A stretch of 64,000 bases of DNA from positions 1 through 64,000 of the forward strand of contig CAIRZB010000046.1 of the NCBI GenBank assembly GCA_903882935.1, read 5' to 3'. The notes below the pieces were generated by a model that saw only the letters and a list, made by a program, of their open reading frames with translations, was not told the origin of the DNA and searched no databases. The translations under genes were made by a program, and so were the position numbers. Below are positions 21,121 through 28,903 of the stretch, in pieces (within the stretch, counting starts at the first letter, position 1; each line of letters opens with the position of its first letter). Source of the stretch: an uncultured Parafilimonas sp. (GTDB taxonomy: Bacteria; Bacteroidota; Bacteroidia; Chitinophagales; Chitinophagaceae).

Positions 21121-21264
21121 ACTATGCCCTATGGTCCTGTTCTCACGCCATGGGCTATGGACGATGGACTATGCCCTATGGTCCTGTTCTCACGCCATGG
21201 GCTATGGACGATGGACTATATACCAAGGTCCTGCTCTCACGCCATGGGCTATGGACGATGGACT
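21121..21264. repeat. 47-bp tandem repeat, three copies
   Basis: Copies start at 21121, 21168 and 21215, and a partial one at 21262, at an exact 47-bp spacing. Copies 1 and 2 are almost identical; copy 3 differs near its start (ATATACCAAGG for ATGCCCTATGG). Inside each unit, TATGGAC, GATGGAC, TATGCCC and TATGGTC follow each other every 7 bases, so the 47-mer seems to have grown from heptamers. It lies between two convergent genes. Confidence 0.9.
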
Positions 21265-24930: not shown

Positions 24931-26943
24931 CTAAAACGCAAACCTCGCCCCTGCCATGCAGTTAAAACGTTTGCTGTTGTAGCCCCTTATGTCAAAATAC
25001 TGCTGGTTGGTAACATTGTACAAATTGGCAAACAACTTTAGTTGTTTGGTAAACGCGTACTCGCCCACCACATCTAACGTGTAATAGCCCGCCACGTTTA
25101 TGGGCGGTTCCATATAAGCAGGCTCCTCGTGGCTGCTTACGGCACGCAAGTGCAGGCCAACGTACAGCTGTGGTGTGGGCAGCAGATTAACTTGCAGGTT
25201 AAACAGGTTACGCGGCACACGGTAATGGTTGTACAGGGCAGTGTCTTTACCGGTAAAGCCCGATGCGGTATGTATGTTGCCATCCGTATACGTATAATTG
25301 GCCGACACGCTGAACGCCTTGCAAATATTGGCTTGCAGTTCGGCCTCCAAGCCGTTGTCGTTTTGTTTGTCTTGGTTTATGTATTGGCTGGCATAGGTAA
25401 CGGGGTCGGTATAAAAATAGATAACGTTGTTGATGTCCCTTTTAAACACGGTAACCCGGGCGGTAATAATGCGCGCTGCGTACTGTATGCCGGCCTCGTA
25501 GTTTTGTGATTGTTCTGGTTTAAGCGCCTTGTTGCCGTATTCGCTGTACAACTGGTACAAGCTGGGGGCGCGGTAGGCCGAGGCTACCGTGCCGTACAGT
25601 TTTATACGGTCGTTTATTTTGTAAGAAGGGCTTAGGGAGTACGTGCCGTTAAACCCATAAATGCTGTGGTTGTTTACCCGGCCGCCAAACTCAACCGTAA
25701 AGCCCGCCAGAGTTTGCACGATGGCAGATGCATATACACCTTCCTGAGTGGTTTTGGCACTGTCGCCCAGTGCGGTGGAATAAGGCCCATAAATACTGCT
25801 GGAGAAATATGCCTGTTTGGTAGTGTTATACCTAACATCAGCACCGGTTACCAACTGCACATGCTTGCCCAGCTTAAAGCTGCCGTACAGCTCGGCAAAA
25901 TGCGCGTAGCCTGTGTAGCTGCCGTTTTGGTAATCGGTGGGGTCGGCAAGGTTACTGTCTTGCACGTAGGCACGGTTTACGGTGTTGTATTGGTAGTTAA
26001 ACACCAGTTTGGTGGTGCCAACCATGTAACCGGCCGTGGTACCCAGCTGCAAGTTTTTGTCGTTAATGGTGTAATCCCATGCATCGGTAAAGGCACCGGC
26101 AGCCACTGCCGCCTTGTATTGGTTAACATGGCTGTAGGCGCGTATGCTAAAGCCCTTGCCCGCATCGTACCCCACGGAAGCGTTGAGGCCCTGCCCGGTG
26201 TAAGGCTTGTTGCGGAAGCCTGCAGTGCCGGTGGGGTCGTACGCGGCGGAAAAGCCCTCGCTGTGTGTGTAGGTATAACCGGCGTTGTACTGCCAGCCGC
26301 TTTTGCTGCCGTTAATACCGGCGGCCATGTTACCGGTGTTGTAGGTGCCAGCCGCCACACTGCCATAACCGCCCACGGGCTGGTTAGCCTTTTTTTTAGT
26401 GATGATGTTAATAACACCCGCCACCGCATCGCTGCCATACAGGGTGCTCTGTGCGCCTTTTAAAATTTCCACGCGCTCCACTTGGTTTACATTGATGTAG
26501 TTGAGGTCAAACTCGCTGGTAATACCGCTGGGGTCGTAGGCAGGCACACCGTCAATTAAAATGAGCGTGTTGGCACCGGCGGCCCCGCGAATGTTAACGG
26601 TTTGGTTGGTGCCGGGGTTGTTGTTGGCACCGTTGATAACAATGCCTGTTTGCTCATTTAAAATTTCGGTGAGGGAGCGTGCGCTGGCTCGTTCCAACTG
26701 CTCGCGGCTGATGACCGTTAATACTTTGCCGGTTTCGTTTTGCTTTTGCTCGTACTTGTTGGCCGTAACAATAACGGGCAAGAGGGGGGAAGACAAAGTG
26801 TCGGGAAGTCGGGAAGGCGGTAAGTTGGTAAGTCGGGAAGTCGGGAGGTCCGGAAGTTGGGAGGCTGCGGTGTGTGTTTGGGCTGTGATGGTTTGCAAAA
26901 TTGCCAGTGCGGCCAGAGAAAAAATAATTTTTTTCATGCTCAT
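24931..26943 (-). CDS. btuB: TonB-dependent receptor, probable cobalamin transporter (BtuB-like)
   Basis: A 670-residue outer-membrane receptor. The start at 26943 (M-S-M-K-K) gives a clean signal peptide ending T-I-T-A-Q; an ATG two codons on is equally possible. After a linker comes V-I-V-T-A-N-K-Y as TonB box and plug start, then the plug with N-I-R-G-A-A-G-A-N-T-L-I-L-I-D-G-V-P and V-E-R-V-E-I-L-K-G. The 22-strand-type barrel ends in R-F-A-F with a terminal aromatic residue. The cobalamin riboswitch directly upstream points to a corrinoid substrate. The linker between signal peptide and TonB box is encoded by an 8-bp DNA repeat (26800-26863), which is odd. Confidence 0.9.
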   Translation of the reverse strand: MSMKKIIFSLAALAILQTITAQTHTAASQLPDLPTSRLTNLPPSRLPDTLSSPLLPVIVTANKYEQKQNETGKVLTVISREQLERASARSLTEILNEQTGIVINGANNNPGTNQTVNIRGAAGANTLILIDGVPAYDPSGITSEFDLNYINVNQVERVEILKGAQSTLYGSDAVAGVINIITKKKANQPVGGYGSVAAGTYNTGNMAAGINGSKSGWQYNAGYTYTHSEGFSAAYDPTGTAGFRNKPYTGQGLNASVGYDAGKGFSIRAYSHVNQYKAAVAAGAFTDAWDYTINDKNLQLGTTAGYMVGTTKLVFNYQYNTVNRAYVQDSNLADPTDYQNGSYTGYAHFAELYGSFKLGKHVQLVTGADVRYNTTKQAYFSSSIYGPYSTALGDSAKTTQEGVYASAIVQTLAGFTVEFGGRVNNHSIYGFNGTYSLSPSYKINDRIKLYGTVASAYRAPSLYQLYSEYGNKALKPEQSQNYEAGIQYAARIITARVTVFKRDINNVIYFYTDPVTYASQYINQDKQNDNGLEAELQANICKAFSVSANYTYTDGNIHTASGFTGKDTALYNHYRVPRNLFNLQVNLLPTPQLYVGLHLRAVSSHEEPAYMEPPINVAGYYTLDVVGEYAFTKQLKLFANLYNVTNQQYFDIRGYNSKRFNCMAGARFAF
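26800..26863. repeat. GTCGGGAA octamer repeat inside the receptor gene
   Basis: Eight consecutive octamers: GTCGGGAA twice, GGCGGTAA, GTTGGTAA, GTCGGGAA, GTCGGGAG, GTCCGGAA, GTTGGGAG. The period of 8 keeps an open frame and gives a Leu/Pro-rich linker (L-P-D-L-P-T-S-R-L-T-N-L-P-P-S-R-L-P-D) of the receptor. Related units lie in the riboswitch loop near 27250 and more weakly near 46400. Confidence 0.85.
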
Positions 26944-27088
26944 TCTTCGTTTTGGGAAATGTGAAAATTTGGTTTGGAAGAATGAGCTTTCGAATAATGA
27001 AGGTATAGAAATGCAAATAATCCCCTGCAGAAGGATGATTGACATCTCCGGCTTTTCACCCGAAAGCTCAGCGATAATACATGCTGCT

Positions 27089-27331
27089 GGCAGGTCTTCT
27101 GGCTTGCTCCCTGCAAACCGCCTTCCCATCACGCCGTTGGCGTAAAAGTGGCATTGTGGTTTGCAGCGGCGAAAACGTGAATCGTGAATCGTGAATCGTC
27201 AATCGTCAGTATTTTTAGGGTACGGTTTTCTTTACCACCCGTCTTTCTGACTTCCCGATTTGCTGACTAATGTTTTCGCCTAAAGAGCTTACAGCTACGG
27301 GGATAGCGCCGGTTTTGCACCGGACTTCCCT
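27089..27331 (-). promoter_or_regulatory. Cobalamin (B12) riboswitch with an enlarged peripheral stem
   Basis: On the minus strand the 5' conserved part at 27287-27330 reads GGGAAGTCCGGTGCAAAACC and continues GGCGCTATCCCCG and GTAGCTGTAAGC. The 3' conserved part has GCCACTTTTA (27143-27152), GGGAAGGCGG, and AGCCAGAAGACCTGCC at 27091-27106. This is the B12-element core. It controls the receptor gene 146 bases downstream. Between the two parts a perfect 9-bp stem (27168-27176 with 27272-27280, GGCGAAAAC/GTTTTCGCC) encloses 95 bases of repeat-rich sequence. No T-run terminator is evident before the ATG, so control may be at translation. Confidence 0.92.
27175..27209. repeat. Heptamer repeat (WTTCMCG type) inside the riboswitch
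   Basis: Read on the minus strand the units are ATTGACG, ATTCACG, ATTCACG, ATTCACG and then TTTTCGCC. They are in phase, 7 bases apart, and sit in the loop of the enlarged riboswitch stem. The same unit makes up the array at 36694-36868. Confidence 0.85.
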
Positions 27332-27439
27332 TTTAATTCGTTTCCCGCCGAAAGGGCGGGATTCAAAACCAATAGCAGGGCAAAAATAGGGGTAAAGGTT
27401 AAACAGAACAATTAATTATGGGGGATAGAACGCAGGGAA

Positions 27440-27682
27440 ACGCAGTGAATGGTGAGTGGCGTGAATCGTGAAACGTGAGACGTGAAACGGGAAACGTTCC
27501 GCCTTTACATTTTTATCGCTGTATTCAATATCGCTGAGGAATGATGAGAATAAAAAATTTAAAATCCATGCCATTCACGGCTCACCATTCCCCACTCAGC
27601 ATTGGCTTTTCACGTTTCACGATTGCCGTTTCCCGATTCACGATTCACGATTCACGTTTCACGCTTCCCGTTTCACGTCATT
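27440..27682. repeat. Two opposed heptamer arrays with an intervening segment
   Basis: Left block 27460-27497 reads GTGAATCGTGAAACG and similar units. Right block 27608-27679 reads the reverse complement type (TTTCACG, ATTCACG, TTTCCCG) in about ten units. The segments just inside, GAATGGTGAG near 27447 and CTCACCATTC near 27578, are also complementary. The whole could fold into a large imperfect hairpin. It lies between the symporter and the riboswitch, both on the minus strand, and overlaps the symporter stop codon. Confidence 0.8.
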
Positions 27683-28903
27683 CATCCAGTCTTTTCCTTC
27701 CATTATTCGCGCCACCATCATGCCGGCCACCGTGTCGCCGGTGGCGTTTAATACGGTGGCTATGGGGTCTACCAGGGTGCCGATAATCATTACCGCAGGC
27801 AACGCCTCCGGGGGGAAGCCATAGGCCGATATTACCAGCAGTTCGCCAATATAACCGCCGTTGGGTATGCCGCCTTCCACAATGCTCACCACCACGCTGA
27901 TGGCCAGCGCAATGCCAATGGTGTCAATTCCACTGAGTGGCTTATGGAACATGGCGAACACCACCACGATTTTTGTTACCGACGAGATGGCCGACCCATC
28001 CTTATGCAGGGGCGCGCCCAGCGGCACCACTAAGTTGCTGATATAGTCGGGCAGGCGCATTTTTTTTGCGGCGGCCAGGTTTGCGGGTATGGTGGCAATG
28101 CTGCTGCAGGTGCCGATGGCCGTGGCAGATGGCATAATATTGTTTTGCCAGTATAGTTTAACGCCTTTGTAACCACCCGCTAAAAAAGCATACAGGCTAA
28201 AAAATACGATGAAGTAAAAAAAACTCACCCCATGAAAAAGGGCCATGGCCTTGCCGTATGTGCCGAACAATTGCGGGCCGATGGTACCCACTTGGTAAGC
28301 AAAGTAAGCACCCAAGCCAACGGGCGCTATCTTCATAATGATGAGGAGCAGCTTGGTAAACACCTCGTTGCCCGAGTTGAGGAATTCTTTGAAGGCGCGG
28401 CCTTTTTCCCCGGCGTTTTGCACGGAAAAACCGATAAGCATGGAGAATATGATGAGGGCCAGCATGCTTTTGCGGGAGAGCAGTTCAAAAAAATCGCTGG
28501 TGGTTACCAGTTGGGTTATCTGGTCGCCCACGGCGGGCTTGGCCATATTGTCAACAAACTCCTGCCCGCCACCCATTTGCTGTTGTATGGGGAACACCCA
28601 GGCGGTAACCAAGGTGATGAACGCAGCAATAAGCTCGGTGCCTACAAATACACAAATCATAACGGTAATCAGCCGCCCAAAGTTGTGGGAGCGTTCAATG
28701 TTGGCGATGGCCGAGGCTATGGCAAAAAACACCAGCGGCACAATGGCTGTAAACAACAGGTTTAAAAAAATATTGCCGATGGGTTTTATCACCGCTATGC
28801 TGCTGCCGAATATTAACCCGGCGATGCTACCAATGATAAGCCCGGCAATCAGCAGCAATATGCCGCCGTAATGTTGTAAAAAACTGTTTTGTTGCTTTAC
28901 CAT
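27659..28903 (-). CDS. Dicarboxylate/amino acid:cation symporter (DAACS family)
   Basis: A 414-residue polytopic protein of normal family length. Motifs of the glutamate/C4-dicarboxylate symporters are present: I-F-L-N-L-L-F-T-A-I-V-P-L-V-F-F-A-I near residue 50, then A-T-A-I-G-T-C-S-S-I-A-T-I-P (the S-S-x-x-T-x-P substrate hairpin), P-L-G-A-P-L-H-K-D-G-S-A, and D-P-I-A-T-V-L-N-A-T-G-D near 390. It imports acidic amino acids or dicarboxylates with Na+ or H+. The last six residues (D-V-K-R-E-A) and the stop codon are written by a heptamer repeat, so the gene end has been overwritten or extended by the repeat. Confidence 0.93.
   Translation of the reverse strand: MVKQQNSFLQHYGGILLLIAGLIIGSIAGLIFGSSIAVIKPIGNIFLNLLFTAIVPLVFFAIASAIANIERSHNFGRLITVMICVFVGTELIAAFITLVTAWVFPIQQQMGGGQEFVDNMAKPAVGDQITQLVTTSDFFELLSRKSMLALIIFSMLIGFSVQNAGEKGRAFKEFLNSGNEVFTKLLLIIMKIAPVGLGAYFAYQVGTIGPQLFGTYGKAMALFHGVSFFYFIVFFSLYAFLAGGYKGVKLYWQNNIMPSATAIGTCSSIATIPANLAAAKKMRLPDYISNLVVPLGAPLHKDGSAISSVTKIVVVFAMFHKPLSGIDTIGIALAISVVVSIVEGGIPNGGYIGELLVISAYGFPPEALPAVMIIGTLVDPIATVLNATGDTVAGMMVARIMEGKDWMNDVKREA

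Follow-up and report, generated by a model that had tools for sequence, protein, structure and literature searches.

The repeats described by Vioque in cyanobacterial RNase P RNA are reportedly built of a heptamer unit and are said to lie in helix P12. Short tandem repeats in this structured RNA gene trace back to Vioque 1997 (as cited in excerpts of PMC2858038 and PMC4748335), and the dispensability of P12 in cyanobacteria is credited to the same work (excerpt of PMC2858038). Heptamer repeats are also described as dispersed elements: the Xanthomonas word GGGAATC and the Nostoc word GGGGA(C/T)T both recur with a period of 7, lie mostly between genes and frequently form inverted pairs, and the excerpts of PMC4692102 mention no riboswitch location for them. 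A further word, TAACTGA, forms direct repeats in Beggiatoaceae, Cyanobacteria and some Bacteroidetes, with a patchy spread and mostly just upstream of start codons (PMC4679880). In the openly licensed papers covered by our literature search, we found no description of repeat arrays in a riboswitch stem or of a variable stem derived from dispersed repeats.

The cobalamin riboswitch analysed here carries such an insertion in a peripheral stem that is known to vary in its class (RF00174). As far as the excerpts describe the cyanobacterial RNase P repeats, the likeness is that short dispersed tandem repeats lie within a structured RNA gene; the differences are that the host is a riboswitch, that the phylum and the words are others, that the layout is an inverted hairpin, that at least ten genera are involved, and that the RNase P RNAs of 21 genomes of this comparison are heptamer-free. 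With tandem 7-nt units beyond chance and genome-wide copies, the heptamers fit the dispersed heptamer SSR/STRR class. An ATTCCCG variant in the genome is the Xanthomonas GGGAATC on the opposite strand, and period 7, dispersal and inverted pairs are common to both (excerpts of PMC4692102). G-tracts in at least four units, as in the Xanthomonas/Nostoc type, are absent: the units in the riboswitch are ATTCACG and the heptamer arm has no run of GGG-tracts, so that a G-quadruplex is not expected there.

A cobalamin riboswitch with an extended P8 hairpin

The window, meaning the whole 64,000-nt stretch that was analysed (C46:1-64000), belongs to a draft genome of 5.54 Mb (G000), whose closest relatives in the comparison are Chitinophagaceae-like Bacteroidota. 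Rfam gives a single match in the window, to the cobalamin riboswitch family (RF00174); it lies at 27388-27072, minus strand, covers the model from 1 to 189 of 189 and scores 75.1 bits (E 1.1e-16; gathering score 31.5). The riboswitch ends 129-135 nt before the start of btuB.

27072..27388, minus strand: cobalamin (B12) riboswitch aptamer, upstream of btuB (RF00174, full model)
27110..27167, minus strand: P9-P11 arm (GCUGCAAACC...GGUUUGCAGG), which encloses the conserved CCACUU...GGGAAGGC; intact
24931..26943, minus strand: btuB-type TonB-dependent receptor gene downstream of the riboswitch, start at 26937 or 26943 (intact ORF; orthologues)

The RF00174 alignment shows the core letters and the B12 box to be kept (GGUGCAAA...CCGG, CCCCG...CUGUAA and GCCAG.AGACCUGCC). 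Of the BtuB orthologues that were examined in the family, most have the riboswitch upstream of their gene; family members with this arrangement have BtuB proteins of 38-48% identity, and the orthologue in the congeneric genome G002 is 69% identical. Judged by sequence, this is probably a functional cobalamin riboswitch governing btuB, and since the aptamer core is conserved, switching probably survives the repeat insertion. The other B12 riboswitch of the same genome (C45:18312-18513) is intact and ordinary, with 202 nt and 95.8 bits, and the 20 bits by which the btuB riboswitch falls below it would fit a decayed riboswitch, a dead regulator with the repeats as its debris. However, so long an insertion is expected to depress the score, no damage is seen in the core letters, P7, the P9-P11 arm or the 3′ core, and btuB is an intact open reading frame; we therefore hold decay to be extremely improbable. 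A search of the phage collection with the riboswitch gave no match.

The RNA runs from P7 (GCUC/GAGC) through GGCGAAAAC, 95 nt and GUUUUCGCC into the P9-P11 arm with CCACUU...GGGAAGGC. The first-pass annotation had placed a perfect 9-bp stem with a 95-base repeat insertion in a peripheral stem of a B12 riboswitch, and its coordinates are exact: GGCGAAAAC lies at 27168-27176 and GTTTTCGCC at 27272-27280, with 95 nt in between. As P7 lies on one side and the intact P9-P11 arm on the other, the stem is the base of the facultative P8.

27168..27280, minus strand: facultative P8 hairpin carrying the repeat insertion (sequence, lag-7 test, folding)
27272..27280, minus strand: basal P8 stem of 9 bp, 5′ strand (RNA GGCGAAAAC), paired in the minimum-free-energy fold
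27236..27267, minus strand: four degenerate octamer-type units, GTCAGCAA ATCGGGAA GTCAGAAA GACGGGTG, in the 5′ arm of the P8 loop (matches to same-genus arrays)
27218..27240, minus strand: inner spacer hairpin GGGUGGU AAAGAAA ACC GU ACCC, single copy in the genome
27176..27209, minus strand: heptamer array ATTCACG x3 + ATTGACG + CTGACG, in the 3′ arm of the P8 loop (TRF, lag 7, BLAST)
27168..27176, minus strand: basal P8 stem of 9 bp, 3′ strand (RNA GUUUUCGCC), paired in the minimum-free-energy fold

The 3′ arm comprises four and a half heptamers, the last ones being the three ATTCACG units, and TRF reports a period of 7 with 4.4 copies at 27176-27206. The lag-7 autocorrelation of the P8 side is 24.6 (p = 0.001), and 1000 dinucleotide shuffles did not once reach this value. 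Of the two repeat families that had been proposed for this RNA, the heptamers are thus clear and the octamers weaker: the octamer arm by itself is not significant (lag 8, p = 0.12), and we accept this family only because congeneric genomes hold arrays that match the 5′ arm (BLAST, 88% in G002 and 84% in G001), including clear octamer arrays such as GTCGGGAAGTCAGTAAGACGGAAAGTCATTAAG at L397. The whole P8 folds as a single extended hairpin of -29.8 kcal/mol (z = -2.6; 2 of 200 shuffles equally good), a poorer fold than that of several other array-bearing P8 hairpins.

Recurrence of heptamer arrays in P8

We compared 241 distinct B12 riboswitches from the family and its neighbours. Their P7/P8 sides have a median length of 42 nt and a range of 15-137 nt, and the btuB riboswitch described here stands at the maximum. 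In this comparison of loop lengths, which the first-pass annotation had suggested, relatives have either no array or a short hairpin, and the range of lengths leaves no room for one non-repetitive insertion conserved at the same length in every one of them. Of the P8 sides, 131 were testable, being 40 nt or longer, and lag-7 autocorrelation was significant (p <= 0.002) in 25 of them, where about 0.3 would be expected; among the other periods from 4 to 11, lag 8 was significant in one P8 side, lag 10 in two and the rest in none. The 25 of 241 should not be read as a prevalence, because the set is non-random, part of it having been picked for the length of the match or for genomes rich in arrays; nor are the genomes independent of one another. 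Outside P8, lag 7 was found in a single P9-P11 arm and in at most one case in the 5′ and 3′ flanking segments, and a lag-11 signal that is frequent in the 5′ core corresponds to conserved riboswitch sequence. This near confinement to P8, across at least ten genera, gives good support to the earlier suggestion that the repeats enter where folding tolerates them.

Carriers of P8 arrays belong to ten genera of the whole-genome set (g1, g6, g28, g39, g53, g69, g72, g74, g84 and g102), with three further GenBank MAGs. The words differ among them (GTGAATG/ATTCACC, ATGAGTA/ATTCATC, AAACCAT, GTAGCAA, TTTTGAC) and the polarity is constant, the 5′ halves holding 49 GTSAA and no TTSAC and the 3′ halves 1 and 29, respectively. 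Folding pairs the arrays in register, the z of the hairpins lying between -2.6 and -7.6. Genomes with a P8 array are also rich in such repeats, with a median of 12 (TTCACNN)3 arrays per genome, vs 0 in the other tested genomes (Mann-Whitney p = 8e-5).

A single P8 array acquired early in the family, then inherited with words drifting in each genome and with many losses, would account for the identical position and polarity everywhere and for the arrays common to members within genera g39, g72, g84 and g102. However, in a FastTree phylogeny of 114 BtuB proteins, many forks of which are weak, the ten array-bearing rows cost nine changes, sister species differ (G070 has an array, the congeneric G150 has none), and the words are unrelated, as AAACYAT and GTAGCAA illustrate. 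We consider such common descent very unlikely; the patchy distribution and the differing words suggest that the P8 arrays were acquired independently. Among close relatives, no insertion with its corresponding empty site was found, because the sole btuB orthologue within the genus sits at the edge of its contig: a search of G001 and G002 for the riboswitch gave no match, and the btuB contig of G002 begins inside the leader.

We also sought heptamers in the RNase P RNAs of 22 genomes, 21 of which gave an RNase P match, and found none in these 21. Tolerance of a variable stem alone therefore does not predict arrays, a single negative RNA being a weak control.

Other repeats were seen in the stems of these riboswitches. 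In L165, a riboswitch from a MAG of Arcicella sp., the P9-P11 arm (about 1110-1190) holds four TAACTGA heptamers with AACAGTA units, so that the exact word of the direct repeats described in PMC4679880, a paper without mention of riboswitches, fills this arm. The P8 side of L347 (G181) consists of GAGATGGA octamers, a further case of period 8. In about 20 riboswitches, mostly Ferruginibacter-like (L088, L142, L146, L152, L210, L344 and some 14 more), P8 is a hairpin of the CCTCCCCAAACCCCTCCAAAGGAGGGGCTT type, which is possibly a second repeat family at the same site. For CCTCC...GGAGG hairpins in P8, membership in a second dispersed family is plausible by sequence; dispersal was not apparent in the flanks that were covered, one similar palindrome lying elsewhere. 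The long P10-region insertion of L134 (G167 C65) includes CTTCGACAAGCTCAG, a putative dispersed Bacteroidota repeat.

Heptamer arrays across the genome and the family

The heptamer trimer, with A/T and A/C allowed at two positions, matches 141 times in the genome of the window, and the reversed-pattern control does not match at all. BLAST with the P8 region matches the heptamer arm at more than 100 other places in this genome, whereas spacer and stem are single copy; as only the array part recurs, the words are dispersed without forming a unit with fixed ends. This bears on the possibility that a MITE- or REP-like mobile element brings the repeats in by targeting stem-loops. The bipartite, inverted structure would suit such an element, as would the preference for P8 over the RNase P stems, which are heptamer-free in 21 genomes, and the occupation of P8 by further hairpin repeats (CCTCC...GGAGG). 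Yet BLAST recovers the array words alone and never spacer and arms together, the words differ by genome, and a terminal-repeat or target-duplication signature is not established, which leaves a mobile element of this kind quite unlikely.

The family genomes hold dozens of arrays, often as inverted hairpin-forming pairs, with words that differ between genomes. (TTCACNN)3 trimers are present in 113 of 296 family genomes. In sampled stretches of five genomes, period-7 arrays were about twice as frequent as other periods, or more, in four (tenfold in G214 and G085), and the fifth, G175 (200 kb sampled), showed no excess of them. Two arms of one intergenic pair lie next to the riboswitch in the window, and an octamer array lies within btuB itself.

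27460..27497, minus strand: intergenic heptamer array (CGTGAAA on the plus strand), left arm of an inverted pair (TRF)
27608..27678, plus strand: intergenic heptamer array (TTTCACG), right arm of the inverted pair, overlapping the 3′ end of ORF 27659-28903 (TRF)
26800..26862, plus strand: octamer array GTCGGGAA within btuB, read on the minus strand as a linker with an 8-residue period after the signal peptide

The intergenic pair folds with a z of -5.7, and the GTGAA arm comes first in seven of the genome's inverted array pairs and second in one. The array at 27608-27678 crosses the stop and last codons (VKREA) of a dicarboxylate-transporter-like ORF (27659-28903, minus strand). The octamer words of the P8 arm also form arrays at 26800-26862 and in six further places of the genome. 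The array in btuB is in frame (LPDLPTSR LTNLPPSR LPDTLSSP) directly after the signal peptide, and the G002 orthologue, 69% identical, lacks it; repeats have therefore also entered a permissive protein linker, in the same transcript as the riboswitch. The 19 ACTTCCCG-dimer matches fall at seven places and without exception on the reverse strand of the respective contig; contig orientation is arbitrary, so this may be chance. Crude ORF calling placed many arrays in open reading frames of 90 codons or more, an unreliable result that we set aside. One of the genome's largest array loci (C98:56583-56850, L240) has a forty-word heptamer array followed by more arrays in both orientations, and the window contains at 21121-21264 a tandem repeat of 47 bp in 3.1 copies (93% matches) that includes GTTCTCACGCCATGGG. 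A scan of the other array loci of this genome for further Rfam RNAs returned none.

Concerted word change in genus g84

Within genus g84, the P8 arrays of two species are of the GTGAATG type and those of two others of the ATGAGTA type. Between them, four pairs switch from G-C to A-U on both sides, at alignment columns 10, 17, 24 and 31, which are one heptamer apart, so that every unit is re-spelled at one fixed position in both arms. Such paired changes could come from base-pairing selection or from concerted copying. The former would be anticipated if the array hairpin were functional and kept by positive selection, with the length, stability or copy number of P8 tuning the riboswitch through RNA half-life, folding kinetics or co-transcriptional timing, and possibly serving as a slippage-prone dial on B12 uptake. 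The recurrent use of P8, the in-register pairing of the arms and the four compensatory pairs, which preserve the hairpin despite the word change, all agree with a function of this kind. However, intergenic inverted arrays outside riboswitches fold equally well or better (mean z -3.6 vs -2.8 for P8 arrays), and pairing is therefore a property of the element; most family riboswitches have no array; and a spacing of exactly 7 between the compensating columns is explained by concerted word replacement. We thus judge a tuning function improbable. As intergenic hairpins outside known RNAs pair equally well, the evidence favours concerted copying in g84. A comparison of TTCAT with TTCAC words elsewhere in two genomes (7:3 in G214, 5:7 in G085) points in the same direction as their P8 words, with numbers too small to count.

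Discussion

With good confidence, we interpret P8 as a site that the dispersed, inverted heptamer-array hairpins of the family have used recurrently and at which they are tolerated, the core being spared. Beyond what the first-pass annotation described, the arrays are part of a genome-wide, inverted, hairpin-forming class, and their uptake into P8 is repeated with different words. In the riboswitch described here, an array pair, with octamers in one arm and ATTCACG heptamers in the other, would have been taken into P8, lengthening the hairpin outward and leaving the ligand core untouched. We envision that P8, which would point outward with its stem length unconstrained, retains arrays that arise or land in it, whereas arrays elsewhere in the riboswitch would be lost because they would break the RNA; purifying selection would thus surround a permissive site. 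Replication slippage and template switching at DNA hairpins would be the likeliest step by which arrays are created or moved. Taken together, we infer recurrent independent acquisition, selective tolerance and preserved switching. P8 is apparently a harmless docking site for repeats, and it may also be a preferred entry point, the alternative that the first-pass annotation had raised.

It is also conceivable, although we put this forward only tentatively and think it rather doubtful, that the arrays are born and rewritten in place, DNA hairpins like P8 seeding period-7 arrays via repeated slippage and template switching. One such process would re-spell both arms together, which would explain the change at the same position in all units of both arms in g84 as well as the genome-specific dialects. 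If true, structured RNA genes would be birthplaces of genome-wide repeats, beyond mere landing sites.

Our analysis carries a warning that, where repeats have been inserted, covariance scores make a riboswitch look weaker than it is. The P7/P8 sides, from about 15 to 137 nt, form a natural insertion series for gauging the limits of peripheral growth in an RNA switch, and the combination of one site, many genera and genome-specific words offers a clean system for the origin and concerted change of bacterial heptamer repeats. For the riboswitches themselves, dispersed short-period repeat hairpins, reusing one stem, emerge as a source of long variable stems in a major riboswitch class.
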